From positions 1-42,038 of IMG/VR virus record IMGVR_UViG_3300048834_000341: DNA of 42,038 bases; one strand, written 5' to 3'. This DNA is from a virus. Every line of letters starts with the position of its first letter. The first letter of the stretch is position 1. The position numbers and the translations under genes are program-made. The notes below the pieces were generated by a model. That model was given only the letters and a program-made list of their open reading frames with translations, did not search any database and had not been told where the DNA came from. Positions 2,898 to 31,361 of this stretch are shown here, piece by piece.

Positions 2898-3893
2898 CTA
2901 GGTGACCTTGAGGCCGATGGCCTTGCTCACGCATCGCGGACCCCAGGCAGCGGTGCCGAGAATCCACTTCATGCGCCAGCGGTAGTTGTCCTTGCTCTCG
3001 AGCTCGATCGGGCCCCGCACGTCGAGCGGCTGGGCCTGGATCATTTCCAGGTTGTCCGCCTGCTCCTTGACGAAGAACACGCGCGTGTTGTCCGAGGAGC
3101 CGAGGCCGCCGTCCGTGTAGGTGTTGAGGATCACCTGCGTGGACTGATCGGTCTTGAGCCCCAGGTCGAAGAACGGCGTGTCGCGCCACATGAACGCGGG
3201 GAGGTCCGCCGCGCGCGAGCCGAGCTCACGCGGGTTGTCCACGTCGAGCCGCGCCTGCTTCCAGTTGTAGTCGTTCCCGAGGAGCGACTGCTGGCGGAGG
3301 TGCGACTCGAAGCGGAGGAGGAACTGCTCGTTGCCGAAGCCGGCGGTCGGCTTGTGGCCGTCCGTGCGGAACATGGCCAGCTCGAGCCGGTCGATCGCGG
3401 CGATCGCGTTCGAGGTCGCCGAAATGTCGAGCTGGCTCGCGCCGATCGTCTGGTTGCTCGACAGCGCACCAACGATGCGGTTGAGGCCGTTGAACCCGTT
3501 GGGGTCCGAGCCCACGTCGCCGTTGATGAACTGGTCATTGATCTTGAGCGCGGCGCCCTTCTTCGCGAGGTTGAGCTGCGAGACGGATGCGCGCTGGATC
3601 GTGGGGCCCGAGAAGTCCTCGAGCACCTTCGGAATGTCGATGTGGTGCAGCATCTGGTAGACCACGTGAGTGATCTGTTTGCCGTCCACCGTCGCCTCCG
3701 AGATCGTGCCGTCGATCGGCACGAAGCCCGGGTTCGGGAGCTCGTCGTAGCGAACGCCCGTCTCCGAAAGTGCGTTGATGCTGCGGAACTTCATCAGGTC
3801 GGCGACAACGCCTTCCTGGGCGATCCCCAGCATGAGCCCCTTCGCGAGGGGCTCCTTCTCGAGCTTGGCGTACTGCGAAAGCGTGTAGGTCAC
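2898..3893 (-). CDS. Major capsid protein (HK97-fold candidate)
   Basis: 331 residues from GTG 3893, with AAAGGAG 7 bases upstream. The N-terminus is a helical, charged segment followed by regions such as VRYDELPNPGFVPIDG and a long helix running through SQLNLAKKGAALKIND. The C-terminal half contains NTYTDGG, FFVKEQ and a terminal PRCVSKAIGLKV stretch. These resemble capsid proteins of podovirus and siphovirus groups in which an N-arm and spine helix precede A and P domains. The scaffold-like gene is directly upstream and the decoration-like gene directly downstream. Length is typical for a capsid protein lacking an attached protease or delta domain. Confidence 0.75.
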   Translation of the reverse strand: MTYTLSQYAKLEKEPLAKGLMLGIAQEGVVADLMKFRSINALSETGVRYDELPNPGFVPIDGTISEATVDGKQITHVVYQMLHHIDIPKVLEDFSGPTIQRASVSQLNLAKKGAALKINDQFINGDVGSDPNGFNGLNRIVGALSSNQTIGASQLDISATSNAIAAIDRLELAMFRTDGHKPTAGFGNEQFLLRFESHLRQQSLLGNDYNWKQARLDVDNPRELGSRAADLPAFMWRDTPFFDLGLKTDQSTQVILNTYTDGGLGSSDNTRVFFVKEQADNLEMIQAQPLDVRGPIELESKDNYRWRMKWILGTAAWGPRCVSKAIGLKVT

Positions 3894-3914: not shown

Positions 3915-4991
3915 TTAGCGCCGAGCCGCCCTCCCGCCGGACCGCTGGCGGCGGATGCCGTCACCAATGCCGGAAGAGAAGAGCTCGGTCGGGTCGTCGA
4001 TCTTCGAGATATCGCGCTCCCTGCTGCGCTGCCCGCGAGGTGCGGCCTGGCCGCCCCCGATCATGGGCCGGGCGGCGCGAGGTCGTCCGGGAGGCGCTGT
4101 GCGCTGCTCACCGTTCCCCCCATCGCCACCGCTGCGCTGCGTGAAGCCACGCTCGAGTAGCTCGTCCACGTCACGCTCGAGGGCCGCGAGCCCTTCCTCG
4201 GATGCGGGGTAGCGCTGCTCCTGCTCCTGGCGGCGAGCAATCTCGGCCTGGAGCTCGGGAAAGCGGCTCAGTCGCTCAAACTGCCGCACGGACCGCTGAT
4301 TGAGCTGAATCAGCCCGTCCGCTGCTGCTACCCGCTCGTCGGGGGTCTGCTGCTCGAAGGCGGCGGCGAGCTGCTTCGCTTGCGTGTAGACGGGCCCCTG
4401 GGGGTCCGTCTGAATCCACGCCAGGAGGCCGTCCGGGTCGCCGTCGAAGTGGGATTCCACCTCGAACACGAACCGGCGGTAGTTTTCCTGCGTGCGAAGC
4501 TGCTCGGTGAGCTGCTGCCGAACGGTCGTGCCGGCTAGGCGTGCCGACTCCTCGCGGAGTGCCTGCAAGAACGCCGGGTCTCGAAGTGCCTTGTTCGAGA
4601 CCTCGGCGACTCGCGCGGCGTCGGCTGCGACGATGCGCCCCCACTCGGCCGGGCTCGGCTTCGTGGCGGGCTTCTTCGCGGTCGATTGCTCCGGCGCGGT
4701 TCGATCGTCCGGTGCGTCGTCGGCGTCGAGGTCGCCCTCTTCGTCGTCGAGCTCATCCGGCTCGTCGTCACCATCCTGCGTATCCGCGTCGAGCTCGTCG
4801 GAGTCGTCCGACGCGCCCGGGTCGGCGCCGTCCAGGTCGTCCTCGTCGATGAATCGGCCAGCGTCGAGGCCGGCGGTGATCCCCTCGAGCACGAGTGATT
4901 CCGGTGTCTCGGGCATCTGACCACGGGCGCGCGTATCCGCGGAGCTCCTGCCCCTCTCGGAGACGCCCTGGCCTTCCCTTACCGTCGTCAT
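3915..4991 (-). CDS. Scaffolding-type protein
   Basis: 358 residues from ATG 4991, with a GGAGGTG site. Residues about 47-100 are very acidic, with long Asp/Glu runs. The middle (about 115-290) is helical and charged with coiled-coil potential, and the C-terminus is basic and Gly/Arg-rich after a DISKIDDPTELF stretch. This acidic-to-helical-to-basic layout immediately before the capsid gene is typical of phage scaffolding proteins, whose basic C-terminus contacts the capsid subunit. No protease motif is seen. It begins about 40 bases after a strong terminator, so the capsid block is likely transcribed from its own promoter or by read-through. Confidence 0.7.
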   Translation of the reverse strand: MTTVREGQGVSERGRSSADTRARGQMPETPESLVLEGITAGLDAGRFIDEDDLDGADPGASDDSDELDADTQDGDDEPDELDDEEGDLDADDAPDDRTAPEQSTAKKPATKPSPAEWGRIVAADAARVAEVSNKALRDPAFLQALREESARLAGTTVRQQLTEQLRTQENYRRFVFEVESHFDGDPDGLLAWIQTDPQGPVYTQAKQLAAAFEQQTPDERVAAADGLIQLNQRSVRQFERLSRFPELQAEIARRQEQEQRYPASEEGLAALERDVDELLERGFTQRSGGDGGNGEQRTAPPGRPRAARPMIGGGQAAPRGQRSRERDISKIDDPTELFSSGIGDGIRRQRSGGRAARR

Positions 4992-5113: not shown

Positions 5114-5428
5114 CTAGCCCCCCGTGGGTGCTCCTGTCACCCCCGGGCCGTCGTACCAGGTCCCGCACCGCCGGCATTGGGCCCACGTGCCAGCGGCCAG
5201 CGCCCCGACGTACTGCTGGTGCCCGGGGCGGCGCCGCGCCTCCTGACAGTCTGGGTTGTCGCAGAACACATGCGAGACGCCCGGCGCGAGCGCGCGCTCG
5301 TGGCGCGCGACGAGCGGCGGGCTGCCGTGGAGCGCGTACTCGGGCGGGCGCGTGAGGTCGATCACGGGCACGCGATCGGGCGTGATCGTGATCCCCTCGA
5401 GTCCGGTGATCCCCGTGTGGATGGTCAT
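5114..5428 (-). CDS. Small zinc-ribbon-like protein
   Basis: 104 residues from ATG 5428, whose ATGA overlaps the stop of the giant polyvalent gene, so translation is probably coupled. The N-terminal half contains a PPEYALHG segment. The C-terminal half has a Cys pair FCDNPDC and, after about 25 residues, a second pair QCRRC, consistent with a four-Cys zinc ribbon. No enzymatic motif is seen. It is the last gene before the 5031-5070 terminator. A structural or DNA-binding role in assembly is possible; I cannot name a family. Confidence 0.65.
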   Translation of the reverse strand: MTIHTGITGLEGITITPDRVPVIDLTRPPEYALHGSPPLVARHERALAPGVSHVFCDNPDCQEARRRPGHQQYVGALAAGTWAQCRRCGTWYDGPGVTGAPTGG

Positions 5429-8400
5429 GCCGCCTCGCTCCTCATCTGCTGGAGCTGCTGCTCCGCCTGCGCTCGTTGCTGGGGAGTGGGGGTGCCAAAG
5501 AAGTACGCCGTGAGCGGGTCGCGGCGCGTTGCACGCTTGCGGTCGGGGGCGGTCGAGAGCGATCCGGCGATGCGCCGGCGCACGCCCGTCACGATGCGCG
5601 GGTCCACGTCGCCGGCCTGCGCGAGCACCTGGCGGAGCGCGCGGCTCATCGCGAGGTCGTCGGTCGAGGCCGCGCGAGCGCGCGCCCGGCTCCAGAGCTC
5701 GTCGATCGCCCGCGCCTCGTCGGCGGTGTAGCCCTGGTAGCGCGGGAGCTCGTAGTAGACGTTGGCAGCCTTGCGGTACGCCCGCACGAGCGGGGTATCC
5801 GAGGTGCCGAGGCTCTTGTCGATCGCCTCGTTGGTCGCCTGATCCCAGCCGGCCCGCGCGCGCTCGAGGGCGCCCTGGTCGACCGCGCCGGTGCTCGGGT
5901 CGGTCGAGTCGGCGATCGCCTTGAGGTAGCGCTTGAGCGGGTCCTTCGCGGCCTGCGCGTCGGTGATCGCCTGGCCGGGGCCGTAGACCGCCTCGAGCTG
6001 CCCGCGGAGCCGCACGGTGCGGTCGCCGCGCTGCTGCTGCCAGTCCTGGCGCGTGAGCTTGCCCTCGAGGAGCTGCTGGTCCGATGCGAGCTGCTGCTGG
6101 TAGGCCTGCTGCCGGAACGCGGCCGCCTGCCCGCCGCGTCCGCCCGCCTGGGCCTGCTCCTCGAGGATCTTCCCCTGGAGGTCCGGGTGGGCCGCCGCGA
6201 GCTCGTTGCGCTGCTGCGCCGTGAGCTCGCCGTACTGCTTGCCGAACGCCTGGCGTGCGAGCTGGTCGCCGGCGCCCTGCTCGTAGGCCTGCGTGCCGAG
6301 GCCCACGGCGGAGCCGACGCCCGCCACGAGGCCCTCGACGGGGCCAGCGCCGCGCGTGGCGTCCACGAGCTCCTGAATGAAGAGCGGCGTCACCATGCGG
6401 AGCGCCTGCTCACCCACCGCCGGCGGCGAGAATCGGAGCTGCTCGCCGGACGGGCTCTCGCCCTGGGCGCCGGCGACGACGGCAGCCGGGACCGGGGCGA
6501 GCTTGCTCTTGAGGAAGCGGTAGACCGTCTCGCCGCGCGCCTGGTCGTAGGTCTGGCCGGTGCGGGCGCTGGTCGCCTCGCCGGTGACGAGGTTCGCGAC
6601 GAATCGGAAGAGCTGCTGATTGCCGCCCCAGATATCGATCCGGGTGCCGCCCGGGAGCGTGATCTTCCCGAAGTCCGAGCTCGTCGGCTCAACGCCCACG
6701 TTGGCGCCGGCGAGCTTCGCCAGCGCGAGGATGCCGATCCCGGTGCCGTAGAACGCGACGAGGTTCTTCGCGGCTTCCTTTCGCACGGCGGCGTCGCGGC
6801 TGAATACCGCGAGGTTGGCCTGCACCTTCCCGATGAGGTTCCGGGGCGCAAAGAAGAGCGCGTTGAGCGTCTGCGCGTGCGTCTGGAGCACCTCGGGGAG
6901 CTGCCCGCGGCCGGTGGCGGCGTTGATGAAGGCGCCCATCGCCTCGAGCCGGCTCGGCGGCATGGCCGCGAGCTGCTCCGGGGTGAAGCTCGTCAGCCAA
7001 TCGTAGGCGACGCCGGCGCGCATCGAGTTTCCCGCGGCCGTGGCGGCGCGGCTCGACTGGCGCACGAGCGGGAGGTCCCCCACCGCGCGCGATAGGAACG
7101 CCTCGTCCTGGTGGCCGGCCTGGTCGAGAATCTCCACGCCCATCTTCTTGAGGTAGGGGTAGAGCGGGTTCCCGACGATCCGATCCGTCACCGCCTGCGC
7201 GCCCTCGACGGATCGCCATGCGGTGAGCTGGTCCTTCATGGAGCGGAGCCACGCCCGCGGGTGGGCGGGCGCGAGCATCGCGTTCTGGCGAAGCGAGTAG
7301 CTCACGTCGCCGGACGCCATGAGCGTGCGCGGGGCGTTGAGGAGGTCGAGCGCTGTCCGGCTGGGGTCCTCGCGGAGCTGCTGGAAGAGGCTCGCGACGC
7401 GCGCCACGCCCCGCTCCGGCGGCTCCGGCGCGAAGAGGCCCGGCTGGTGGCCGTAGTCGGAGGCGGGCGGTTGGTCCCCAAGGCCGGGGCGCACGGGCCG
7501 CGGCGGGTCGCCGAGAGCCTGCTCGAGCGCGGTCCCCTGGCCCTGACGTCGCGCCACCTCGAGCATGTGAGCCTGTCGCGGCGTGAGCTCGACGCCCGCC
7601 CGCTCCGCCGCCTGGGCGGCCCGGAGATCGGCGATCGCGCCATAGGTGCGCCGCTGGCGGGCGAGCGCCTGCTCCGCTGGAACCCCCCTGGGGACCGGGC
7701 GGAGGAAGTTGGCGCGCCGCTCGAGGAGCTGCTCGGCCCTTGCCTCGGACCGCTCGAGCCCCTCGCGTGCCTGCGCGAGCACGCGCTGGAGGCGCTTGCT
7801 CGTGGGGTTCATGCCGAGATCGCCCTCGAGCTGCGCGACGAGAGCGCGCTGCGCCTCGGCCTGCTCCTGGTAGCGCGTGATCTGCTTCTCACGGTGAGCG
7901 GAGGCGGCCTCGATCCGCGCGAGCGCCTCGTCCGAGAGCGGCGCCCGTGGCGACGGGCGCGCCGCGTTGGCCTCGTCGATCAGGATGCCAATGTCCTTGC
8001 CGAACACGCGCTTGAGGAGCGCCGTCTGCGCCGGCTGCACGTTCTCACCGTCGATGAGCGCCTTGAGCGCGCGGAGGCCCTGCCATTGGGTGAACTCCCC
8101 TTCGCCTTCGAGGACGCCCTGAATGTGATCGGCGAGTGCGTCGCGGGCCTCGTCCGTGATCTCGAGCGGCGCCGCAAACGTCTTGCGGAGCGGACCAACG
8201 CGCGCCGCCTGACTGGCGCCGGAGAGCCGATCATCGAGCGATGCGCCGGAGGCATTGGCCGCGTCGAAGCTGCGCCGTAGGCGCCCCGCCTGGAGTCGGC
8301 GCCCGGCGGCGATCTCGTCCATCACCTGACCGGAGCGGCGCAGATCCACCTCCTGCGCGAGCGCCTGCTGGAGGGCGTGGAAGGCCGGCTCGTCGGGCAC

Positions 8401-11400
8401 TCCCGGGCGATTGTTCACGTATGGGCCCGGCGTCGGCTGCTGGCGGAACGTCGGTTCGTCCGGCACGGTGGCGCGAGAAGCCACCGGAGCCTCCATGCCG
8501 GCGGCCTCGAAGAGGTCCGGGCCCTGCTGCCGAGGGACGGCCGGCTCCTGCGGCGCGATCTCGCCGAGCGTGGCCTGGCCGGCGGTGCGTGGCGCGGCGG
8601 CCTCCGCCTGCGTGCGCACGCGGCTCATCACCTCCGCCTCGAGGGAGCCGAGCCGCTGGTTGATGCTCGCGAGCTCGGTCTGGCCGGCGGCCTCGAGCTG
8701 CGACACATCGACGCCGGCACGCTCCCCCAGGCTCTTCACGGACGCGATCTCGCGGTTGATGTTGCGCTGGGCCGCGAGGAGCTCGTCCTGGAGCTTCGCC
8801 CCCTCGCGCACCGCCTGGTAGAGCGGCGTGGAGTCGCCACCGAAGCCGTTGCCCTCGAAGCCCGGGAGCTGGCGATTCTCGAACGCGGGGGCGAGGCGGT
8901 CGAGCATCCGGCGGACGGCGGTGGGCGAGGGGAGGGTCTCGCCCTTGCCGCGGCGCACGAGCGCGTCGAATGTGCCTTGTGCGTCCTCCTCGCTCACGCC
9001 GAACATGCGGCGGAAGCGGCCCACCTCGGCGGCGATGCCCTCGAGCTGCGGGTTGGCCGTCACGCGGTCCACGATCGCGGCGCCGGCGTGCCCAACGTCG
9101 AGGGTGCGCTGCACCTTCTCCGCGCTCATGCGCGCCTGGGCGCCGATCTCGTCGGCGCTCATCCCGTGATCGGCGAGCGTCGAGAAGGCGCGCACGCGCT
9201 CGCGGACGTTCTGCTCCGCCTGCCCGAAGTTGCCGAGGATCGCCTCGGTCTGGGCGCGGTTCATGCCGGCGCTGGTCGTGAGGTCGGCGTTGACGACGCG
9301 CACGGGGAGGTCCTCGGCGCCGACACGGCGGGCGGCCTCGAGGCGGTGGTGGCCGGAGAGCACGACGTAGCCGCCCTCGGGGTCCGGTGCCACCACGAGC
9401 GGGTCCACCCGGTCCGGGCTCCAGTTTTCCACGAGGTTCTGCACCTTGCGCTCATCGAAGCTCGTCCCGGGCGTCGTGTCGCGCGCCTGGAAGAGCTCGG
9501 GACGGGTGCGGATCTGCTCGAGCGGGAGCCGGCCAGCGTCGCCAGGGGCGATCGTGTGCGAGGCGGCGACCGCCTCGGCGTCCACGGGGCGCGGCTGCTG
9601 GCCCTGCGGCTCCACCGGCGCCAGGTCGCCGCCGAAGTCCGGGTAGCCGTTCGGGCGAGTGTTGGGGCTGTCGGAGCGCATCCGGTAGCGGCTGCCGTCT
9701 GATCGTTCGTAGATCGTCTCGCCGGCGGCGTTCTTGCCGATCACCGTGTCGTCTGCGGGGATGATCGTCTCGCGCGGAGCGGTCGGGTTACGCGAGGCAT
9801 CCGCGGCCCGCTTGTATTCGGCGAGGCGCTCGCGCGCGGAGGGTTGCTGATCCCCACGCATGAACGGCTCCGCCGGCTGGTCGGGAGCGCCACCGCGTAG
9901 GCCTGCCGGAGGCGGCTCCTCGCCGCGGGCCTGCTGCTCCTGGAAGCGGCGCATCGCCTCCTCTCGGATCTTCGCGAGGCGGTCCTTCGCGATCGGCGCG
10001 GGGCGCGCGTCCGCCTGGCGGGCGCGCGAGAGCGCGTCCTCGACCGTGCCGGTCGTGGGTGCGCCCAGCTTGGCGCGGAACCCCTCGATGAGTCCGGTGT
10101 CCACCTCGCGCATATCGGTGGGGACGGGCCCGTTGTAGAGCGCCTCGCGCGCGGCGGCCTGCTGCTCCGGGGTGGTGGCGCCGATCGAGCGCCCGAACGT
10201 CTCCATGAGCTGCTTCTTGGTCTCTTCGGAGACCGCGCCGGTCTCGGCCACCTCGCGCTGCGCCTGCGCCTGGAGCCGCTGCACCTCGGCGGCCCGTCCG
10301 CCGCGCATGAACGGCTCGCGGGGCTGGTCAGCACCTCCGGCCATGCCAGGCATACCGCCACCGGGAGGCGGCTGGTTGCGCCCGGCGTAGAAGTCGGCCA
10401 TATCCGGGAGCGCCTCGCCCGGCACGGGGTACTCGTTCGAGCGCACGTCGAACACTTCCGTGAGTCGGGGCGCGCCCTTGAGCTTCTTCGAGTAGCCGAT
10501 CACGCCGTCGTAGCCGGCATCCTTCACGGCCTGGGCCGCAATGCGCTCCTGGAGTGCGTAGGCGAGAAGGTTCCCCCCGCGGCTGTTCTGGATGATGCGC
10601 TCGGCCTCGTACCCGATCGGGTCGTCGATGCCGTAACGCGAGAGGAGCTCGATCACGGCCCAGGTGTGTTCGTTCGAGCCCTGGCGCCGGAAGTCGCCCA
10701 GGCCGTTCTTCAACACGTCCTCGCGCATCCTTTGATACGCGCCCTTCCCCTTGAGGAAGTCGTAGGCCGCCTCGGGGGCCTTTCCACCGGCGGCTGCTTG
10801 CACGAGGAGCGGGTCCTGGAAGCGGGTCCGCACCTGAACGCGGTCCGAGCCGCCGTATCCGCTCGGGGCCTTGTCCGTTCCTCGCGGCGCGCGGAAGTGG
10901 CGCTCATAGGGGCTCTTTGCCTCGGGCATGTAGAACGTGCCCGCGCGCACGGAATCCGCACCGGCCTGGTCCGGGACCTGGTAGCGCACGAGATCGAGCT
11001 CGATCGAGCCGTCCGGGTGGATCACGGTGCCCGGGGTGCTCTTGATCGCGGCGATCGCGTCGTCGCCGAGCACCTGATTGGGGCGCGCGCTCTTGCTCAC
11101 GTCGCGCATCGGTGCGCCGCCGCTCATCAGGGGCGGGCGGAGGCCCTCGCCGCGCTGGAGCCGCTGGATCGCCTGCTCGTCCCAGAACACGTAGGCGTTG
11201 TGGCGAATCCCGCCACCCATCGTCACGCCGCCGTCGTAGCGGATGCCGGTATAGCCGAGGTCCGAGAGAGCGCGACGGATCGCCACCTGTGCTTCTTCGG
11301 TAGGCCCGATGTTTCTCCATAGATCGCGGAGCGTGCGCTGCGACCCGTCTCCGCGATTCATTGTCTCCGCAATCACACGGCGGATCGCGTCTCGCGCGTC

Positions 11401-13200
11401 GTCCGGGAGCGGAGCATCGGCGTCCAGCGCACCGTTGAGCACCGCGCGCGGGACGTTGAGCTCGGTCTGCTGGCCGGAGAACTGCCCCTTCGGGTAGATG
11501 CCGAACTGCTGCGTGGTCGGCGACGTGCGCCCGAGGTCCACCACGTCGAGCGTGTCTGGGGTGTACCGGCCCGTGACGTAGCGCCTGAGCTCGCGCGCCT
11601 CGGTGGCAGCATTTCCGCCAGCGCGCTCCACGATCCCGATCGCGTCCTGCACCTCGGCCGGATCGGGCATCCCCGCCATGCCGTAGGGGAGGGGCTGGCC
11701 CTTCTGCTCGCGGCGCGCGAGCGAGGCAAGCTGGCCGATGCGCGACTTCCAGAACTGCTCGATCGCCTCGTCCGCCGGCGAGAACTGGCCGGGCTCGAGG
11801 CGTCCGTTGCGATAGAAGTGCGTCACCACGTTCGGCTCGAAGAGCGGAGCGCGTTCGGCGCCCTTCACCTGGTACGAACGGGCGATCTCCGGGGAGTCGG
11901 TGAAATAGATGCCCTGCCCGAAGAGCGCGTTGGGCTGGCCCTTCGGGAGCGAGAGCGGCCCCGTAGGCTGCGCGTCGCCGCGATAGAGCGTCACGGTGTC
12001 CGCGGCCTGCTCCGGCGTGGCACGCATCGCGCCGCCGGCCAGCGCGGGGGCGGGCGCCGATGTTTCACGTGAAACATTGGCGCGGCGGAGCTGGCGCTGC
12101 GCCTCCTTCGCCGTGCGCTCCGCCGCGAATATCTCGCCGGCGAGCTGGCGCCGCTCGAACTGGCGGAGGGTGGCGAGCTCGTCGGCGGGGATGCGCGCGG
12201 CGAGGTAGTTGTCGACGTTCGAAACGTTGCCGAGGTCCTCGGCGCGCGGCACGGGGAACGCCCGTCCGCCGGTGCTGTAGTGCGGGTTGATGAGGTCCTG
12301 GCCTGCGGCGCGCCCCTGCTCGAACGCCTCGGGCGCGGCGGCACGCATGGCCTCCTGCGCCTGCTGGCGGGCGGTGGCGCGCCACGCGCTGCGCGTCGCG
12401 TTGATGCCGTGGAGGCCCGCCACGCCTCCCGCCAGGCCGCCAGCGAAGCCGGCGACGGCCTGAGCGGTCTCGCCTCCGCCGAGCGCCTCGGTCGCGGCGC
12501 CTGCGGCCCGGGCGCCGTAGTACCCGCCGACGCCCATCACGCCCTGAGCGGCGACGTTGGAGGCGATCCCGCCCTGCACGGCCGGGGCGATAGCTCCGGC
12601 GGCGAGGCGGCCAGCGAGGCCAGCGGATCCGAGACGCGCCAGCGCGGCGCCACCGGCGGCGGTCGAGCCGATGCCAGCGGAGGCGAGCGAGAGCGGAGAG
12701 AGCCCGGCGTCGAGGCCCACGGCGAGCGGCGTCCCGATCACGGGCACACGCTCGATCGCGTTCTTCACGGCGGTGCCGGGGTCGCCCGGGAGGATGAGGT
12801 CGGCGAACGCGGAGGCGCTCGTGGCGGCGCCGAACCCGGTGGCGAGCCCGTCGCGCACCTCGCGCGGCACGAGCGAGCGGAAGGCGTTGGCGACGTTGCC
12901 GAGGAAGCTGGGCCTATCGGGCCCGGCCGCCCCGGCCTCGGGAGGGTTTGCGATCGAGCGGAAGGCCTCTCCGGTCGCCTGGCGGCGAGCTGCCTGCGCC
13001 TGCTGCACGACGGGGGAGGGTGCGCGCGAGTCGCGGACGATCTGGCGCGCGGTCTGGATTGAGACGGGATCGCCAGCGGCAACGAGGGGGGAGATCCGCT
13101 CGGCCATAGCCTGCACGGCGGAGGCCTGACGGGCGCGGATGGTCGTCTGGGGCTCGTAGGCGTAGCTGGCCGGCTTGAACGGGTTGTAGGCCGGCGCCAT
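5425..13200 (-). CDS. Giant polyvalent protein: two ART-like domains, ParB domain, LPD38-like domain
   Basis: 2,591 residues from ATG 13200, with a GAGGAGGG site. Approximate layout: residues 135-275 are a Gly/Ala-rich hydrophobic stretch with glycine-zipper character that could insert in membrane. Residues 395-670 are ADP-ribosyltransferase-like (VTLYRGDAQ, GIYFTDSPE, then YTGIRYDGG). Residues 757-925 hold a second such module ending in YDGVIGYSKK and EVFDVR. Residues 1215-1365 are a ParB/sulfiredoxin domain with GHHRLEAARR near 1281. Long helical, coiled-coil segments fill about 1400-1950. Residues 2100-2320 (FFAPRNLIGKVQ, SSDFGKI, IDIWGGNQQLF) match the polyvalent-associated domain type I know as LPD38. 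Such proteins are thought to be packaged and injected with the DNA to blunt host defences. It ends inside the next gene's ATGA. No frameshift is visible. Confidence 0.88.
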   Translation of the reverse strand: MAPAYNPFKPASYAYEPQTTIRARQASAVQAMAERISPLVAAGDPVSIQTARQIVRDSRAPSPVVQQAQAARRQATGEAFRSIANPPEAGAAGPDRPSFLGNVANAFRSLVPREVRDGLATGFGAATSASAFADLILPGDPGTAVKNAIERVPVIGTPLAVGLDAGLSPLSLASAGIGSTAAGGAALARLGSAGLAGRLAAGAIAPAVQGGIASNVAAQGVMGVGGYYGARAAGAATEALGGGETAQAVAGFAGGLAGGVAGLHGINATRSAWRATARQQAQEAMRAAAPEAFEQGRAAGQDLINPHYSTGGRAFPVPRAEDLGNVSNVDNYLAARIPADELATLRQFERRQLAGEIFAAERTAKEAQRQLRRANVSRETSAPAPALAGGAMRATPEQAADTVTLYRGDAQPTGPLSLPKGQPNALFGQGIYFTDSPEIARSYQVKGAERAPLFEPNVVTHFYRNGRLEPGQFSPADEAIEQFWKSRIGQLASLARREQKGQPLPYGMAGMPDPAEVQDAIGIVERAGGNAATEARELRRYVTGRYTPDTLDVVDLGRTSPTTQQFGIYPKGQFSGQQTELNVPRAVLNGALDADAPLPDDARDAIRRVIAETMNRGDGSQRTLRDLWRNIGPTEEAQVAIRRALSDLGYTGIRYDGGVTMGGGIRHNAYVFWDEQAIQRLQRGEGLRPPLMSGGAPMRDVSKSARPNQVLGDDAIAAIKSTPGTVIHPDGSIELDLVRYQVPDQAGADSVRAGTFYMPEAKSPYERHFRAPRGTDKAPSGYGGSDRVQVRTRFQDPLLVQAAAGGKAPEAAYDFLKGKGAYQRMREDVLKNGLGDFRRQGSNEHTWAVIELLSRYGIDDPIGYEAERIIQNSRGGNLLAYALQERIAAQAVKDAGYDGVIGYSKKLKGAPRLTEVFDVRSNEYPVPGEALPDMADFYAGRNQPPPGGGMPGMAGGADQPREPFMRGGRAAEVQRLQAQAQREVAETGAVSEETKKQLMETFGRSIGATTPEQQAAAREALYNGPVPTDMREVDTGLIEGFRAKLGAPTTGTVEDALSRARQADARPAPIAKDRLAKIREEAMRRFQEQQARGEEPPPAGLRGGAPDQPAEPFMRGDQQPSARERLAEYKRAADASRNPTAPRETIIPADDTVIGKNAAGETIYERSDGSRYRMRSDSPNTRPNGYPDFGGDLAPVEPQGQQPRPVDAEAVAASHTIAPGDAGRLPLEQIRTRPELFQARDTTPGTSFDERKVQNLVENWSPDRVDPLVVAPDPEGGYVVLSGHHRLEAARRVGAEDLPVRVVNADLTTSAGMNRAQTEAILGNFGQAEQNVRERVRAFSTLADHGMSADEIGAQARMSAEKVQRTLDVGHAGAAIVDRVTANPQLEGIAAEVGRFRRMFGVSEEDAQGTFDALVRRGKGETLPSPTAVRRMLDRLAPAFENRQLPGFEGNGFGGDSTPLYQAVREGAKLQDELLAAQRNINREIASVKSLGERAGVDVSQLEAAGQTELASINQRLGSLEAEVMSRVRTQAEAAAPRTAGQATLGEIAPQEPAVPRQQGPDLFEAAGMEAPVASRATVPDEPTFRQQPTPGPYVNNRPGVPDEPAFHALQQALAQEVDLRRSGQVMDEIAAGRRLQAGRLRRSFDAANASGASLDDRLSGASQAARVGPLRKTFAAPLEITDEARDALADHIQGVLEGEGEFTQWQGLRALKALIDGENVQPAQTALLKRVFGKDIGILIDEANAARPSPRAPLSDEALARIEAASAHREKQITRYQEQAEAQRALVAQLEGDLGMNPTSKRLQRVLAQAREGLERSEARAEQLLERRANFLRPVPRGVPAEQALARQRRTYGAIADLRAAQAAERAGVELTPRQAHMLEVARRQGQGTALEQALGDPPRPVRPGLGDQPPASDYGHQPGLFAPEPPERGVARVASLFQQLREDPSRTALDLLNAPRTLMASGDVSYSLRQNAMLAPAHPRAWLRSMKDQLTAWRSVEGAQAVTDRIVGNPLYPYLKKMGVEILDQAGHQDEAFLSRAVGDLPLVRQSSRAATAAGNSMRAGVAYDWLTSFTPEQLAAMPPSRLEAMGAFINAATGRGQLPEVLQTHAQTLNALFFAPRNLIGKVQANLAVFSRDAAVRKEAAKNLVAFYGTGIGILALAKLAGANVGVEPTSSDFGKITLPGGTRIDIWGGNQQLFRFVANLVTGEATSARTGQTYDQARGETVYRFLKSKLAPVPAAVVAGAQGESPSGEQLRFSPPAVGEQALRMVTPLFIQELVDATRGAGPVEGLVAGVGSAVGLGTQAYEQGAGDQLARQAFGKQYGELTAQQRNELAAAHPDLQGKILEEQAQAGGRGGQAAAFRQQAYQQQLASDQQLLEGKLTRQDWQQQRGDRTVRLRGQLEAVYGPGQAITDAQAAKDPLKRYLKAIADSTDPSTGAVDQGALERARAGWDQATNEAIDKSLGTSDTPLVRAYRKAANVYYELPRYQGYTADEARAIDELWSRARARAASTDDLAMSRALRQVLAQAGDVDPRIVTGVRRRIAGSLSTAPDRKRATRRDPLTAYFFGTPTPQQRAQAEQQLQQMRSEAA

Positions 13201-19388: not shown

Positions 19389-19817
19389 CTAGCGGCCTCC
19401 TGTCACGGCCGAGGGGTACTCGGCGGGGCGCCCCACTCCCGGGCCGCCTACGGGCACGGGAACGGGGCTCGTGAGCGCGAGCTGCGGGAGCGGCGGCGCC
19501 TGGAACGGCGACGCGCCACCCACGCCGGGCGGATTCGGGACCGCGACGGGCGCGGGCGCCCCGAACTTCGCGGAGAGTCGCTCGAGGTCCTTCGCGGCCT
19601 GCGGGTTCTGCCAGAACATCGGCGAGCCGGCGTCGCGGAGCTGTACGAGGTTCTCGTACACCTGGGCGTCCGGGAGCGGGTCGGTGCCGAGCGGGTGGCC
19701 CGACTCATAGAACGCGCGCATGAGGTCGTCCTGCACCTGGCGCGCGAAGTCCTCGAGCTCCGCGATGATCGGGTTCCAGAGGTCGGCAGAGAGCGGGCCG
19801 GGGTGCTGGCGCGACAT
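19389..19817 (-). CDS. Hypothetical structural-block protein
   Basis: 142 residues from ATG 19817, overlapping the portal stop (TAATG). The N-terminal 85 residues are helical (NPIIAELEDFARQVQDDLMRAF, AAKDLERLSAKFG). The C-terminal 55 are a Pro/Gly/Val-rich, low-complexity tail. Its position right behind the portal gene fits an adaptor, head-completion or minor virion protein. No recognisable domain. Confidence 0.62.
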   Translation of the reverse strand: MSRQHPGPLSADLWNPIIAELEDFARQVQDDLMRAFYESGHPLGTDPLPDAQVYENLVQLRDAGSPMFWQNPQAAKDLERLSAKFGAPAPVAVPNPPGVGGASPFQAPPLPQLALTSPVPVPVGGPGVGRPAEYPSAVTGGR

Positions 19818-21787
19818 TAGGCGGGCATCCTTACGCCCTGGTTCATGGGCTGCTGGCCGCCTCGCGCGCCGTTTGCCACGGTCTGCGCCGGCGACTGGCC
19901 GCCGGGCGTCTGCCGCGATGCCTCGGCGCCCTCACGGCCGATCGTGGAGGGCTGCGGCGCCGGCGGCCCCATTGGGAGACCACCGGCGCCGCCTACACCG
20001 CTCCCCCCGCCCGGGGGGGTTGCAGGAGGAGCCAGCTCGGGGAAAGCGTCGCCGATCACGCGCTGGATCACCGCCTGCGTGATCGCCTCGACGATGCCGC
20101 GCTTCGCCTGGTCCACGATGATCCCGCGGTCCTCGGCCTCGAGGTCGTCGATCACCGAGCCGTAGGCGATGCGCTGCACTGTGCGGTGCTGGAGGTAGCC
20201 CTCCTTCTCGCCGTTGATCGCCCACTGAGTCACGGCCATGCGCTGCGCGTCCGAGAGCGGGTCGATGGTGACGCGCGTGGGTACGTCCGTCACCTCGTCC
20301 GGGTAGAGCGTCACGTACTCGAGCGGCTGGCCGTCCGAGCCGCCGGAGGCGACGGTGACGCCGAAGCCGCACACGTCACGCACGAGCGCGCGGGCGAAGT
20401 CGAGGATCTCGCCCATCGTGCGCTGCTTGTTCTTGAGAAGCTGCACGTAGAGCGCGGTGGCGGCTGACTGTTGCGTGTTGAGGGCGAAGCCCGAGGCGTC
20501 CGCGCCCGGGCTCTCGCCCTGCGCGATCGGGTTGAGGCCGCTCATGTGGAAGTATTGGTTGAGGAGCTGCACGAACGCCGGGTCGATCTGGCCGCGGAAC
20601 TGCCCGAACGCATCCGCCACGGTCTGCCCGGGGCCGAGCTGGGGCGGGTGCTCCGGGTCGGAGAGGTCGATCGGGACCGGGTTCCCGCGCTGGTCCACGA
20701 GCGGCGAGCCGTTCTCCGAGGTCTGCACCACGGGGAACGGGCGGCCGTAGGAGAACTGATTGTCCTCCCAGAGCGTGAGGAGGTCGTTGAGCACGGTCTC
20801 GTGCTCGAGCATCCCGAACGTCACGCCGCGCAGCATGTAGCCGCGGTATGTGGAGCTCGTCACCTTCCCGAACTGGAGGAAGATCGGGCAGCCGGGGAGG
20901 CCGTGCGGGATCGCCTGCACGCACCGGCCGGCCACGTACTCGACGAGCCAGTAGTCGTCGTAGTAGCGCAGCACCTCCACCTGGCCGTCCTCGTCGGGGT
21001 GGCCGTCGTACGACGCGATGCGCCAACCGTTGTGATCGGGGTTGCCGATGGTGTCGGGGTCGGGGAGGTGCGCCTGTTCCCAGGCGTCGTCGTCGAGGGA
21101 GTCGGCGAGCTCGCCGTATACCTGGCGGTAGTCCTTGAGCTCCGAGATCAGGACGGCCGACGTGGAGCGGTTGCCGTAGCCCGGCTCCCAGCGCACGGTC
21201 GTCGGGTCGAGGGCGCGCACGCCGAACGGGAGGCCGTAGGCGCGGAGCTCGGCCTCGGCGTCCGCCTTGTCGGCGCCGCTCATCCCGTCGATGCGCTCCG
21301 CGAGGTCGGCGTAGCGGTCGTAGTCCTCGGTGAGGAACACCTCGTAGACGCCGAGCGAGGTCTCCACGGCGGCGTCGTCGCCGCGATCCCAGATCGGCAT
21401 GACGGACTGGCGCTCGAGCGCCTCGAGGAGCTCCTGGCCCCACTTCGTTTGCTTCTCTGCGTAGCTGCGCGCGGTCGGCCGGTCGCCCACCGGCGGGACG
21501 TAGACCTTCGGCCGGTTGCGGGTCATCAGGGCGACGACGCGGGAGATCTCGTTGTCGGTGAGGTTGGTGCGGAAGCGGTGCAGCTCGTCGTCGTCGATGC
21601 CGAGCTTGTCGCGCCACTTCGTCGGGAGCTGGTCCTGGTGGAAGCGGTTGGCGCGCACGTCAGTCACGAGGCGCATCCACTCGCGCGTCGTGCGGTCGAT
21701 GCGATCGCGCATCGTGAGGAGGTCGCCGAGGGAAGGCTGGGGGTGGCGGTCCGGGAGTCGGCGCCGGCGGATGCGCTGCCTTGCCAC
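19817..21787 (-). CDS. Portal protein
   Basis: Probably 656 residues from GTG 21787, with AAGGAGG 5 bases upstream; an ATG at 21832 is possible but has a poorer site. The sequence has a basic N-terminus, a WRDKLGIDDDELHRFRTNLT region, an NEISRVVALMTRNRPK helix typical of phage portals, a wing region with LDPTTVRWEPGYG, and a helical stem/crown segment (LEHETVLNDLLTLWEDNQF, LLNQYFHMSGLNPIAQG). The C-terminal 80 residues are Pro/Gly/Gln-rich. The DNA-exit ring at one vertex is its expected site. The size suits larger podovirus-type portals. Confidence 0.85.
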   Translation of the reverse strand: MARQRIRRRRLPDRHPQPSLGDLLTMRDRIDRTTREWMRLVTDVRANRFHQDQLPTKWRDKLGIDDDELHRFRTNLTDNEISRVVALMTRNRPKVYVPPVGDRPTARSYAEKQTKWGQELLEALERQSVMPIWDRGDDAAVETSLGVYEVFLTEDYDRYADLAERIDGMSGADKADAEAELRAYGLPFGVRALDPTTVRWEPGYGNRSTSAVLISELKDYRQVYGELADSLDDDAWEQAHLPDPDTIGNPDHNGWRIASYDGHPDEDGQVEVLRYYDDYWLVEYVAGRCVQAIPHGLPGCPIFLQFGKVTSSTYRGYMLRGVTFGMLEHETVLNDLLTLWEDNQFSYGRPFPVVQTSENGSPLVDQRGNPVPIDLSDPEHPPQLGPGQTVADAFGQFRGQIDPAFVQLLNQYFHMSGLNPIAQGESPGADASGFALNTQQSAATALYVQLLKNKQRTMGEILDFARALVRDVCGFGVTVASGGSDGQPLEYVTLYPDEVTDVPTRVTIDPLSDAQRMAVTQWAINGEKEGYLQHRTVQRIAYGSVIDDLEAEDRGIIVDQAKRGIVEAITQAVIQRVIGDAFPELAPPATPPGGGSGVGGAGGLPMGPPAPQPSTIGREGAEASRQTPGGQSPAQTVANGARGGQQPMNQGVRMPA

Positions 21788-21846
21788 GCGGCCCTCCTTC
21801 TCGTGGAGTCCTGCGCGGCCATACGGCTGCATCCGTCTCGGGCGCG

Positions 21847-23122: not shown

Positions 23123-24877
23123 TTACCTCACCGTGACAGTCTGCCCGCCCGCGGGGATATCCTCCGCGCGCGTGTAGCCCTCGGTCCCGTACAGCACGCT
23201 CACGAGTACGTCGTCGTCCACCTCGATCGGGTCGTCAGAGAACGGCTCGCCGGGGACGTTGGGCTTGCGCTTCCACTTCTCGATCTCGAACCGGAAGCGC
23301 TTGCACCCGCCGATCGTGTGCGGCTGCTTGTCCATCGCCCCCTCTACCACCATCGGGCGCTCCAGGTAGTAGAAGCGGGGGCGCCCGTCGCCCTGCACCG
23401 GGAGGAGGAATCCGAACTGCCGGCGGCGCTGCTTGGCGCTGTTCGGCACGCGCGAGGCCATGCGGAGGGTCGCCATGCCCGCGCGCCGGCGGAGGGTCTG
23501 AAAGTACGTCCGCTCGTCGCCGTCCATCGTCCAGTTGATGTTGAAGCCGAACACCGTGTGAGCCTCGTCGATCGCGAGCATTTGCTTCTCCTCGACGTTC
23601 TGGCCGCGGTCGTACCACTCGTACACGAGCACGAGCCGGTTGGAGCTCGTGAGCCCCATCACCGTCACCGCCGAGTAGTGGGCGGTCTCGCCCTCGCCGC
23701 CGAAGTCGAGGCCGCCGTAGTAGGCCACGAAGCGCGGGAGGCCCTTGTAGACGTAGGCGTGGACGGCCGGGTTGAACGCCGGGTAGATGAGCTCGGCGGC
23801 GTCGTTGAGCCGCTGCATCACCTCGACGAGGAAGGACTCGAGGCCGTAGGTGTCGAGGAGGCCCTGCACGCTCGGCTGCCCCACGGGCGCCTGTACCGGC
23901 ATCGCGTCCCAGGTGGGCTCGAGGTCGTCGCCGACGAGGTTCCAGCCGCCGTCCTCGCGCGGGGCGATGTTCCGCTTCGGGTCGAAGTGGCGGAGGGCGG
24001 CGTGCGGCCCGGAGACGCGGCGGCGGATGAGGAAGTCGGCCGAGCCGTCCGCGAGCTTCGTGAAGATGCCTGTCCGCACGACGAGGTTCTGCACCCCCAG
24101 GAACGCGCAGCCGGGGCCCTGGAGCGGGAGGATCGCGCGGGTGAGGCTGCGCTCCTTGCGCTGCGAGACCGAGGCGGAGTCGGTGTCGCGGTCGAGGTCG
24201 TCGAACGCGATCACGCGGGGGCGGAGGTTCTCACGGCGGGCGCCGCGCATACCGCGATCGAGGCCGGCGGCGTCCACGGTCCAGCCGTCTCGATTCCAGA
24301 GACGGGTCCGGCGCCACCCGCGTTGGTTGCCGTAGCGGCCGACTTGCTTCTGGCTCATGCCCGGGTAGGCGTCCGAGAAGCGGTCCGACTCGAGCATGGT
24401 CCCGATGTTCTCGACGTGCTGCTCCGCCTGCACCTGAGTGTCGCCGACGTAGACCGCGTAATCGCGCTCGCCCGGCACACGCTCGAGCCAGTGGATGAGC
24501 TCGAGGTGGAAGTCCGCGAACGGGGTGAGGTAGCCGTGCGTCGCGCGGCCCACGTAGTCCGGGAAGAACTCGCGGACCCAGCGCACAAAGTCCTTCTCGA
24601 GCTCGCCGAGGGTGGTCTGGGTGCCGTCCTCCATCGTCCAGGGCTTGCTCACGTACTGCGGCCGGCCGCGCGTGCCGAGGTAGACGAGGCCGAGCTCGAT
24701 GAGCGTCGATTTCGTGAAGCCACGCGGCCAGATCGCGATGAACGCGGGCGGGTTGGGCGCCTCGAGCTGCTCGGGCGACGTGGGGGCGGGCGCGGTCGGC
24801 GCCGGCGGGCGCGGGCGCTCGCGGGTGATGCTCCCCATACGGATGCGGCCCGTGAGCTGTGGGAGCGAGAGCATCAT
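23123..24877 (-). CDS. terL: Terminase large subunit (ATPase plus nuclease)
   Basis: 584 residues from ATG 24877, chosen because its ATGA overlaps the upstream stop. The N-terminal motor has a variant Walker A, WPRGFTKST (about 50-58), an adenine-region helix, an HVENIGTMLESDRF segment, and Walker B as RVIAFDDLDRD near residue 224. The C-terminal RNase H-like nuclease begins at YYGGLDFGGEG (first catalytic Asp near 388), with later Asp residues in the VLVYEWYDRG and PIEVDDDVL regions. It drives DNA into the procapsid and cuts concatemers. It is preceded by a likely small subunit and two short genes. Length is typical. Confidence 0.88.
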   Translation of the reverse strand: MMLSLPQLTGRIRMGSITRERPRPPAPTAPAPTSPEQLEAPNPPAFIAIWPRGFTKSTLIELGLVYLGTRGRPQYVSKPWTMEDGTQTTLGELEKDFVRWVREFFPDYVGRATHGYLTPFADFHLELIHWLERVPGERDYAVYVGDTQVQAEQHVENIGTMLESDRFSDAYPGMSQKQVGRYGNQRGWRRTRLWNRDGWTVDAAGLDRGMRGARRENLRPRVIAFDDLDRDTDSASVSQRKERSLTRAILPLQGPGCAFLGVQNLVVRTGIFTKLADGSADFLIRRRVSGPHAALRHFDPKRNIAPREDGGWNLVGDDLEPTWDAMPVQAPVGQPSVQGLLDTYGLESFLVEVMQRLNDAAELIYPAFNPAVHAYVYKGLPRFVAYYGGLDFGGEGETAHYSAVTVMGLTSSNRLVLVYEWYDRGQNVEEKQMLAIDEAHTVFGFNINWTMDGDERTYFQTLRRRAGMATLRMASRVPNSAKQRRRQFGFLLPVQGDGRPRFYYLERPMVVEGAMDKQPHTIGGCKRFRFEIEKWKRKPNVPGEPFSDDPIEVDDDVLVSVLYGTEGYTRAEDIPAGGQTVTVR

Positions 24878-25098
24878 GGCAGGCGGTACTCGTAGACGGT
24901 GACTCCGCGCGGCACAGTGGGGCATCGGCGGCGAGCCACACCACGCTTCGCGACAAGCCCGCCCAGCACTTGCGACAAGCTGGAGTCGGCTCCAAGCGCC
25001 TCTCGGATAGTCCTCTCCGTCACCCACGTTCCAGCGTCCTGGATTACCTGTAGCGCCCGGTCTGCTACGAACGGCGTCATGGTCGCGAGCTCTCCCAC
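24874..25098 (-). CDS. Small winged-helix DNA-binding protein
   Basis: 74 residues from GTG 25098, or 68 from ATG 25080, which has a GGGAG site and may be the true start. The sequence RALQVIQDAGTWVTERTIREALG, then SSLSQVLGGLVAKRGVARRR, then a VTVYEYRLP strand has the order of a winged HTH (helix, recognition helix, beta wing). It sits directly before the large terminase and overlaps it by ATGA. It could assist packaging-site recognition or regulate the operon; no family is certain. Confidence 0.6.
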   Translation of the reverse strand: MGELATMTPFVADRALQVIQDAGTWVTERTIREALGADSSLSQVLGGLVAKRGVARRRCPTVPRGVTVYEYRLP

Positions 25099-25473
25099 CT
25101 AGCCCCTCCTCACATGGCCGCCACGCTGCCAGCGCGAGCTCGGCCGCTTGCGGCGCTCGATCGCGTCCTGGCACGCGCTACAGGCGTCGCACTCATCGTA
25201 GCCGGCCTCGAGCGCCTCCTCCGGCGTGCCCCAGCGGGCGTAGGGCCAGAGGTAGGCGTACTCGGGCGCGGTCGGGATCTGCCCGTGGTGGTACGCACGG
25301 CGCCCACCGCCGCGGGCGTCCGCATCCCACCACCACACGAAGCCCTCGAGGCGTGACAGGTAGGGAAACGCGGGCGGCTTGGGGGCGCGCGAGTCCGCCG
25401 GCGGGCGCTCCCAGCTCTCGACGCGATCCGGGATCGGGGCGTCCTCGAGGCGGTACTGGCGGCCGTCAGTCAT
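25099..25473 (-). CDS. Hypothetical protein with CxxCxxC knuckle
   Basis: 124 residues from ATG 25473, in an ATGA overlap with the probable small terminase. It is rich in Trp, Tyr and Pro in the middle (FVWWWDADARGG, EYAYLWPYARWG), then carries CDACSACQDAIERRKRP near the end, a likely metal-binding knuckle followed by a basic tail. It lies between the two terminase subunits, so a packaging-related role is possible. I cannot name a family. Confidence 0.6.
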   Translation of the reverse strand: MTDGRQYRLEDAPIPDRVESWERPPADSRAPKPPAFPYLSRLEGFVWWWDADARGGGRRAYHHGQIPTAPEYAYLWPYARWGTPEEALEAGYDECDACSACQDAIERRKRPSSRWQRGGHVRRG

Positions 25474-28586: not shown

Positions 28587-29228
28587 CTAGATGCCTCCAC
28601 TCGTGCGCCTTGCGCGCTTGCCCGTGATGCGCCAGAGGTAATGCCGGAACGCCGGCATCGTCTCGGGCCCGTTCCAGATGATCCAGGCGTACTCCGCCGA
28701 GTCGCTCCCTCCGTTCGAGAAGCTGGGGCGCGGCGCGAGGTCGCGCTGGTGCGTGCGCTCGTGCTGCGCCCAGAAGTCGTAGCGGTCGTCCGAGCCGAGG
28801 AAGTGGTCGTTCACGAGGAACGCCACGATCGGCGGCTGCGACCACGGGTTCGCAGCCGGGAGCGCGAGCGCGCGACGCGCGAACGCCTCCACGGTCGAGA
28901 AGGGCGGGTTCGCGATGATGAGGTGGTAGCCCTGGTCCGGCCGGTGCTCGAGGAAGTCTCCGACGATCGGCTCATCCGCCGGAACCATGAGCTCCGGGGC
29001 GTGTTGGCGGTCGAGCTCGATCGCCGTGATGTGGGCGTCCGGCCAAGCGAGGCGCGCGGCGCCCGCCAGCACCCCACGGCCGGCGCCGGCGTCGAGGATG
29101 CGGAGATCGCGCCACCTGGAGAAATGCTCGTGAGCCTCCAGCTCGGCGATGAGCGGCTCGATCACCCCCTGGGGGGTCTCGTAGAAGTCGCGGGGGGAGC
29201 GGGCGCCGGATTCGGGGTGGCGGCTCAT
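28587..29228 (-). CDS. Adenine-type DNA methyltransferase (NPPF)
   Basis: 213 residues from ATG 29228, in an ATGA overlap with the larger methyltransferase. SAM motif I is RILDAGAGRGVLAG, followed by AIELDRQHA (motif II), VGDFLEH (motif III) and the catalytic IANPPFS (motif IV). The N-terminal segment DFYETPQGVIEPLI is common in phage enzymes of this group. The order I-II-III-IV is the gamma/alpha type of N6-adenine methyltransferases. It has no separate target-recognition domain, so target choice may come from the C-terminal region. It may protect phage DNA from restriction. Confidence 0.78.
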   Translation of the reverse strand: MSRHPESGARSPRDFYETPQGVIEPLIAELEAHEHFSRWRDLRILDAGAGRGVLAGAARLAWPDAHITAIELDRQHAPELMVPADEPIVGDFLEHRPDQGYHLIIANPPFSTVEAFARRALALPAANPWSQPPIVAFLVNDHFLGSDDRYDFWAQHERTHQRDLAPRPSFSNGGSDSAEYAWIIWNGPETMPAFRHYLWRITGKRARRTSGGI

Positions 29229-30832
29229 AGGAGCACTCCCTGGGCTTCGTCGATCTCGCCGGCGGCGGCTGCACGCGCGTCTTTCCGGGCGCCAGCGATA
29301 GGATCCACGCGGTAGATCGCCTGCTCACTCAGATACTCGTGCGACACGTCGAGGCCGACGTATGAGCGCCCCAGGCGCACGGCCACGGCTCCGGTCGTGC
29401 CGCTGCCGTTGAACGGGTCGAGCACGAGCGATCGGCCGCTCGGATCGTCGTGATCGCACGTCGGAGCCCATCCGGTCGTCGTGCGCGGGACAACATGCTT
29501 CAAGGTAGAGCCCTCGGCTATCCCGGCTCGGCGCATCGCCTGGATCGAGTCGTCATACTGCCCGGCGCCGGCCGAGCTCCACGCTTGAAGAATGGGCTCG
29601 CCCTTCTCGATGATCCGCTCCCACGGAGCCCCGCACGTCCCGCACGCCGTAGGCGCCGAGCCGCCCAGGATGCACGGCTCGACGAGATCCTCCGGGTATG
29701 TGGCGAAGTGAGCGCCAGCGTATGGCTTCGTCGCGATCGTCCAGACGGAGCGCTTATTGCGGCCGCCTGCCGGTACGAGCTGGTCGGCGCGCAAGGTGTC
29801 GCGGCCGGTGATGTGTCCGCCCTCCCGTCGAGCCCGCGCCGCCTCGAACTTCGGGCGGCCGCCGTTCTGCGAGACGCGCTGGATGCTCGACTCCGCGACC
29901 GGCTCGCGTATCGCGTCGGCGTCGTAGTAGTAATCGTGCGAGTCCCACAGGTTGCGCCGCGTCCACCGCTTTACGTCCTTGCCATCACGCCGCATCGTCT
30001 CCACCCGCCATCCCGGCGGCTCCTCCGCTGTCTCCGCGCCGTCGTTGCGTCCGTCGTACCAGCGGTAATCGGGCGCAGGCTGCGAGCGCGTACCAGCGCC
30101 GTCGCGGTGCGTCCAGTAGGTGGCGTCCCCGCTCTTCGAGAGCAGGAACACGTATTCGTGGCTCTTGGTCGGTCGGTCGGTGATGCTCTCCGGCATCGGG
30201 TTCGGCTTCGACCACACGATATCGGACCGGAGATACCATCCGTCCGCCTGAAGCGCGAAGGCGACCCGCCAGGGAATCCCGATGAGGTCCTTCGGTTTGA
30301 GGCCTTCTTCTCGGATCGTCCCGGTCTGCTTCGCGACCTTCGGATGATTCGCAATCTGATTCCTGGAGAGCGTCTCGGCGTTCGTGCTGCTCTCGCGGTG
30401 ACCTTGCGCGCCCCATGACCCGGCGTAAGAGTCGCCGAGGTTGAGCCAGAGCGTCCCATCCTTGCGCAGCACCCGGCGCACCTCGCGGAACACCTCGACC
30501 ATGTGCTCGACGTACAGGCTCGGCCTCGGTTCGAGGCCGAGCGCCCCGAACCACGCACCGCAGTCGCAGAACGCTCCGCGCCCGGCGCGCTGTCCGTTCG
30601 CCACAGCGTCGGCATGCTGGTGCTTTGAGTCCGGCACCTGTCCCGGTTTGAGCGCTGGCTGCTCCACACCCCACTCGTGCGCGTGAGCAGCCTCACCACC
30701 CCACGCCTGCCGCTGCTCGCCCGCGTACTGGCGCAGTCCCCAATACGGCGGGGACGTGACGACGCATTGAACCGACTCGTCTCGGAGCGGTATCGCGTTC
30801 GCGCTCGCCTGGATGAGGAGAGACCGGCTCAT
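29225..30832 (-). CDS. Site-specific DNA methyltransferase, beta class (TSPPYWGLR)
   Basis: 535 residues from ATG 30832 (ATGA overlap with the DnaA-like gene). Catalytic motif IV, VVTSPPYWGLRQY, is near residue 25. Motif I, LDPFNGSGTTG, near residue 480 lies after it, so this is the circularly permuted beta class; S-P-P-Y usually marks N4-cytosine but some members methylate N6-adenine. Between them are FCDCGAWFGALGLEP, a VLRKDGTLWLNLGDSYAG block, a long target-recognition insert, and a zinc-like CGTCGAPWERII with a later Cys. It should act on double-stranded phage DNA. It is directly coupled to the second methyltransferase. Confidence 0.82.
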   Translation of the reverse strand: MSRSLLIQASANAIPLRDESVQCVVTSPPYWGLRQYAGEQRQAWGGEAAHAHEWGVEQPALKPGQVPDSKHQHADAVANGQRAGRGAFCDCGAWFGALGLEPRPSLYVEHMVEVFREVRRVLRKDGTLWLNLGDSYAGSWGAQGHRESSTNAETLSRNQIANHPKVAKQTGTIREEGLKPKDLIGIPWRVAFALQADGWYLRSDIVWSKPNPMPESITDRPTKSHEYVFLLSKSGDATYWTHRDGAGTRSQPAPDYRWYDGRNDGAETAEEPPGWRVETMRRDGKDVKRWTRRNLWDSHDYYYDADAIREPVAESSIQRVSQNGGRPKFEAARARREGGHITGRDTLRADQLVPAGGRNKRSVWTIATKPYAGAHFATYPEDLVEPCILGGSAPTACGTCGAPWERIIEKGEPILQAWSSAGAGQYDDSIQAMRRAGIAEGSTLKHVVPRTTTGWAPTCDHDDPSGRSLVLDPFNGSGTTGAVAVRLGRSYVGLDVSHEYLSEQAIYRVDPIAGARKDARAAAAGEIDEAQGVLL

Positions 30833-31323
30833 CGCACGGCCGCCGTCTGCTGCTCGGCGCGCTCGTAGAGCTCCACCGTTTGCAGGAGCACCTCCGATTG
30901 CCGCTGCATGAGCACCACCTGTTCCTCGAGCTCGAGGATGAAGCCGCGGAGGCGCTCGGCGGTCGCGGCGTGCTCGCGGATGCGCGTTCGGATGCTCTCC
31001 CCCTCGACGATCGCGAGGTCGGGGCGCCCCAGCGCCTTCACCACCATCGACACGGCGTAGGAGAGCGTGGGGTCGCGCCGGATCATCGCCTCTGCCACGG
31101 CGATGTGGTGCCCGATCGTCGAGTGATCGCGCGCGAGCAACCGCCCGATATCCGTGTTGGCGTGGCCGCAACGGTGGAGCCCGAAGATGAACGCGCGCCG
31201 CGCGTCCACGATGCGGGCCAACTTCACGCGCCCCAGAAGGTCGGCGGGCTCGAGGCTGTACGCCTTCGCCGCCGCTGCGAGCGCTCGCGTGATGGGTGAC
31301 TCTGACTCGGAATCGTAGGGCAC
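30829..31323 (-). CDS. DnaA domain IV-like replication protein
   Basis: 164 residues from GTG 31323. Residues about 25-80 match the DNA-binding C-terminal domain of DnaA: ARIVDARRAFIFGLHRCGHANTDIGRLLARDHSTIGHHI, including the DHST signature that reads the DnaA box. There is no AAA+ ATPase domain. Residues 85-164 form a long charged helix with coiled-coil potential that could dimerise or contact a partner such as a helicase loader. It could bind phage origin boxes or host DnaA sites. Three near-consensus boxes lie about 1.6 kb upstream. It begins downstream of a TTGACA-type promoter. Confidence 0.78.
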   Translation of the reverse strand: MPYDSESESPITRALAAAAKAYSLEPADLLGRVKLARIVDARRAFIFGLHRCGHANTDIGRLLARDHSTIGHHIAVAEAMIRRDPTLSYAVSMVVKALGRPDLAIVEGESIRTRIREHAATAERLRGFILELEEQVVLMQRQSEVLLQTVELYERAEQQTAAVR

Positions 31324-31361
31324 GGTCTCGGCTTTCCGGTGCGCCTGGGTGGTCGCGGCGG

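Follow-up and report, generated by a model that had tools for sequence, protein, structure and literature searches.

A giant phage protein with an ART-type and a ParB domain and a conserved C-terminal domain: a candidate ejected polyvalent protein

The injection of polyvalent proteins along with phage DNA is a prediction that stands mostly without direct tests, and a giant gene lying among the virion genes of a viral record raises the question of what such a protein might carry and how it could be delivered. Here, we examine a stretch of 42,038 bases (the window), an IMG/VR virus record that is linear by classification, whose minus strand encodes a protein of 2,591 residues that a sequence-only reading had described as polyvalent, with two ADP-ribosyltransferase (ART) modules, a ParB domain, a glycine-zipper segment and an LPD38-like end. 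We find that the evidence best supports a polyvalent protein that is delivered with DNA: one ART domain and the ParB domain are real, portal-like, scaffold-like and capsid genes surround the gene, relatives carry lytic transglycosylase (SLT), metalloprotease-like and ART cargo, and one relative lies in an ejection-protein gene order.

The giant gene and its neighbours

The giant gene (5425..13200, minus strand, stop codon within the coordinates) is a single open reading frame of 2,591 codons, and it is a real gene. Its GC content by codon position (0.75/0.52/0.91, and so a GC3 of 0.91) follows the pattern typical of a gene and is matched by the neighbouring minus-strand genes, and from base composition we estimate the chance of a stop-free run of 2,591 codons at 71% GC at about 1e-20. 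A search of phages and viral contigs with the whole protein returned relatives that were weak or none.

The gene is embedded in a set of late virion genes, as is usual for phage polyvalent proteins. The minus-strand order begins with the terminase large subunit (23123..25174; phrog_38, E 3.2e-18) and a portal-like protein (19817..21832; a weak PHROG match to phrog_156, E 0.0019), followed by two proteins rich in Gln and Ala. The giant comes next, and after it a 104-residue protein, an acidic protein (3915..4991) whose composition and position immediately upstream of the capsid gene suggest that it is the scaffold, and the major capsid protein (2898..3893; phrog_212, E 8.3e-20). The 104-residue protein (5114-5428, minus strand) overlaps the giant's stop codon and has paired cysteines, CDNPDC and CRRC, that resemble a zinc ribbon. 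Elsewhere on this strand, a glycosyltransferase-like gene (1537-2442) comes right after the capsid gene and a small tail-protein-like gene, and a 716-residue DNA methyltransferase (29225-31375; N6_N4_Mtase) has a Pfam match divided across residues 202-574, which suggests an insert.

ART-type, ParB and Gly/Ala-rich regions

The first ART module, ART1, spans residues about 395-690 (11131..12018, minus strand) and does contain the YRG and GIYFTD motifs ascribed to it (Y406-R407-G408 and G430-I431-Y432-F433-T434-D435), together with Y670-V-F-W-D674. The Pfam ART-PolyVal family (PF18760) has no match in the window's own genome at E<=10, and the link to that family runs via an intermediate profile. 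Briefly, a DNA pattern for GxGxYFTDxPxxA was searched in viral contigs, giving 58 loci, and 20 domains from these loci were built into the profile; five of the six checked polypeptides carrying pattern hits exceed the Pfam ART-PolyVal cut-off. ART1 matches the profile with an E of 1e-15 (53.7 bits; hhalign 97.6%). Since the pattern had been picked from ART1 itself, the search motif was then masked, upon which the match was retained (E 1.8e-4; hhalign 87%; the best shuffle gave 3.2 bits). By profile comparison, the predicted ART-type domain is thus confirmed.

Polyvalent ARTs have an H-Y-D active site (Iyer et al. 2017, PMC5512222). In ART1, R407 replaces the histidine, Y432 is kept and D674 is a candidate for the aspartate, so that, as far as residues can tell, the ART homology stands and the H-Y-D triad does not. 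ART1 is best called a putative enzyme, because the usual strand-1 histidine is an arginine. Strand 1 likewise reads YRG in L005, the sole relative found in a search with ART1 only, while a rough motif count gives HG or HS in strand 1 for 33 of the 42 non-redundant pattern hits (L005 being among these hits). YRG or YRA is present in two further records, L024 and L032, and the Arg-for-His change therefore recurs. Such a change in both ART1 and L005 would be expected if the giant were an ejection or tape-like protein with a structural role alone, its ART1 and ParB domains being degenerate and serving only in binding or scaffolding. We regard this alternative as unlikely, since YRG, GxGxYFTDxP and a terminal FWDEQAIQ are kept in these two proteins at only 32% identity. 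L005 also contains, at 6850-7540, a second short stretch of ART-like appearance with VYHAT and LFFST, which has no Pfam match.

The second ART module proposed for the giant (placed at residues 757-925 by the sequence-only reading, and taken here as residues 700-945, with GYDG at 896-899; 10366..11103, minus strand) found no support. The ART profile scores it at 8.8 bits, through the GYDG motif only, its hhalign value of 3.8% lies under the best of 30 shuffles, and a search with this region alone found no relatives. By eye, a VRTRFQDPLLV-like strand resembles the ART NP strand; the model of residues 385-945 is unreliable here, with a pLDDT of 44.6 overall and mostly below 50 in the region in question, and in the 10-row alignment behind it the ART rows are misplaced around a long insert in ART1. 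Two ARTs in one chain are, for now, unsupported.

The ParB claim fared better. Residues 1214-1382 (9055..9561, minus strand) match phrog_1033 in a PHROG search (E 3.6e-19) and PDB ParB entries (E 0.004), and ParB_N (PF02195) is the only Pfam family found in the giant, at residues 1235-1305, with an E of 0.0012 that is below the family cut-off. The GxxRxxA motif of the superfamily is present as G1283-x-x-R1286-x-x-A1289, in SGHHRLEAA at 1282-1290, and together these matches confirm the predicted ParB homology. The canonical ENxxR motif is not seen in the domain, where the expected stretch reads GNFGQA, a point in keeping with the degenerate domains of a structural protein. A DNase role has been discussed for the DdrB-like ParB family (Iyer et al. 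2017, PMC5512222); this role is not established for the giant because PF18763, the family in question, had no match at E<=10, in a search whose control was weak, the sole matching control genome falling below the cut-off. A similar ParB stretch is found in Salisaeta icosahedral phage 1 (JN880423.1 32338-32574), under a feature annotated as a DNA methyltransferase in NC_017983.1.

With ART1 and ParB, the giant holds at least two biochemically unrelated domains in one chain, as phage polyvalent proteins do. ParB domains are also known as solo phage and plasmid proteins, and the giant could on that account be imagined as an intracellular, unpackaged protein made during infection for partition, regulation or superinfection exclusion; the position of its gene among portal-like, scaffold-like and capsid genes makes this very improbable.

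Upstream of both domains, residues 115-275 (12376..12858, minus strand) form a Gly/Ala-rich segment of low charge and weak hydrophobicity, which may be a first membrane-active region. Its richness in glycine and alanine is as claimed, but it is not a glycine zipper, having 7 GxxxG motifs against 6.8 expected after shuffling. Hydropathy peaks along the giant are modest (1.3-1.4), and an N-terminal domain common to the giant and L003, L012, L013 and L014 was looked for and not found.

The C-terminal domain and its relatives

Residues 1943-2308 (6277..7374, minus strand) make up a domain that is conserved across uncultivated phages. It recurs in 14 IMG/VR contigs, among which are at least two near-identical pairs, in 8 contigs from metagenome-assembled genomes (MAGs), which span varied groups and whose host assignments are uncertain, and in one circular phage genome (L002, Manatee Spring), the only one of 50,697 annotated phage records in which tblastn with three members detected it. 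At the thresholds used, no scanned member has a Pfam or PHROG match in this domain, and there is no PDB sequence match. An AlphaFold2 model of the domain is confident (pLDDT 86.8, pTM 0.82) and, together with hydropathy, places a hydrophobic helix at residues about 2137-2163 (6712..6792, minus strand).

A BFVD search with the model retrieves direct relatives, followed by proteins that bear the name 'large polyvalent protein associated domain-containing' (E 4e-5 to 7e-4, TMq 0.47-0.53, rmsd 8-13), while PDB structure searches gave nothing above background, which does not prove a new fold. As for the LPD38-like end that had been proposed, the module is conserved and the BFVD matches suggest a fold resemblance to generically named polyvalent-associated domains, but the assignment to LPD38 (PF18857) has no support from sequence: this family has no match in the window or in four relatives, in a search where two records scored 94-97 bits, and hhalign shows no link to it. 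An attempt to enlarge the LPD38 profile yielded no bigger one. We read the domain as an undescribed conserved end of polyvalent proteins, putatively of a delivery type.

Its partners vary. Among 15 giant proteins with the C-terminal domain, Pfam recognises ART-PolyVal in three (L006, L007 and L010) and SLT in two, which our reading of the sequences suggests to be L006 and L010. A HELGH metalloprotease-like motif occurs in L002 and in L024, whose sole Pfam hit is a weak, sub-cut-off match to a metalloprotease family and where the YRG belongs to an ART-like stretch. Several relatives have no recognised enzyme domain, as a structural role would allow, whereas the recognised ART-PolyVal and SLT domains of others count against that role, and the fusions to SLT count against an unpackaged intracellular protein as well. 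L040 and L051 encode polyvalent proteins that join SLT and ART-PolyVal above the Pfam cut-offs, the C-terminal domain being absent in the part that was read.

Gene order in the relatives bears on delivery. In L004, a tail protein (phrog_376), an internal virion protein (phrog_418, E 1.6e-9), a 448-residue protein, the giant and a tail-protein-like gene follow one another, in parallel with T7 genes 12, 14, 15, 16 and 17, so that the giant takes the slot of gp16; this again speaks against an intracellular role. L005 has the order portal-like, SLT protein, giant, scaffold-like and capsid-like, its portal and capsid calls resting on position and sequence reading and its capsid candidate having no PHROG match. 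The SLT gene just upstream of its giant matches phrog_342, the family to which T7 gp16 belongs ('internal virion protein with endolysin domain'), and the C-terminus of the L005 giant itself has no significant match to the C-terminal family. In L011, the giant is followed by a scaffold-like protein and a capsid protein (phrog_212, E 1.7e-44) that matches the window's own, and the order giant, scaffold-like, capsid or capsid-like is thereby common to the window, L005 and L011.

A delivery model and its known counterparts

Taken as a whole, the giant is probably an internal virion polyvalent protein that is ejected into the host, a modular ejection protein whose packaging we infer. It would be made late, at the same stage as the portal, scaffold and capsid proteins, be packed in the head and reach the host either along with the DNA or before it. 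Engagement of the ejection machinery or the inner membrane would fall to the conserved C-terminal domain, perhaps with the Gly/Ala-rich N-terminal segment, in a two-region layout modelled on the proposal for T7 gp16, and the central part of the chain, which holds ART1 and ParB, would come to lie in the cytoplasm. In this compartment, ART1 might modify a host target by ADP-ribosylation or, should Arg407 be no substitute for histidine, do no more than bind NAD+, and ParB might bind DNA or nucleotides or act on them. A bolder version, which we hold only tentatively, makes the C-terminal domain an undescribed swap-in family of ejection proteins, a membrane-engaging carrier that would keep its varied load (a lytic transglycosylase, a metalloprotease, an R-Y-D type ART or ParB) on the cytoplasmic side, flanked by two membrane regions; were this true, ART1 would represent a subgroup of ARTs with arginine in strand 1.

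We conclude that the giant belongs to an ordinary class, the polyvalent proteins, of which its undescribed delivery-type end and atypical ART are the distinctive parts. The former, through its confident model and a single relative in ejection-protein order, offers a handle for finding polyvalent proteins and testing their delivery, and the latter raises the question of whether ARTs with arginine for histidine still ADP-ribosylate. Like the polyvalent proteins described by Iyer et al. (2017, PMC5512222), the giant is a large multidomain chain with ART and ParB, encoded beside virion genes; it differs in a C-terminal domain outside Pfam and PHROG families, in the lack of a detectable Pfam ddrB-ParB and in the arginine of ART1. 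With ART-PolyVal, ART1 shares GxGxYFTDxP, the terminal GYxGI...Y.FWDE and a significant match through the intermediate profile, but it has YRG rather than YHG, its strand 2 is followed by a long insert, and it falls below Pfam detection. LPD38 is, like the C-terminal domain, a helical polyvalent-protein domain with a hydrophobic helix, and BFVD suggests a similar fold class, but neither HMM nor profile-profile comparison matches the two.

The N-terminal part of T7 gp16 (internal virion protein D) is a transglycosylase; the protein also has two putative membrane regions and a part that binds DNA and presumably extends into the cytoplasm (PMC8954989). Its topology serves us as a model and not as evidence of homology: gp16 and the C-terminal profile show no sequence link (hhalign probability 0.1%), a PHROG scan of gp16 finds no ART or ParB family, and the giant of the window precedes scaffold and capsid, the ejection-protein order being seen in L004 and not in the window. 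What likens the two is the comparable slot in L004, the fusion to SLT in other relatives and a possible layout with two membrane regions.
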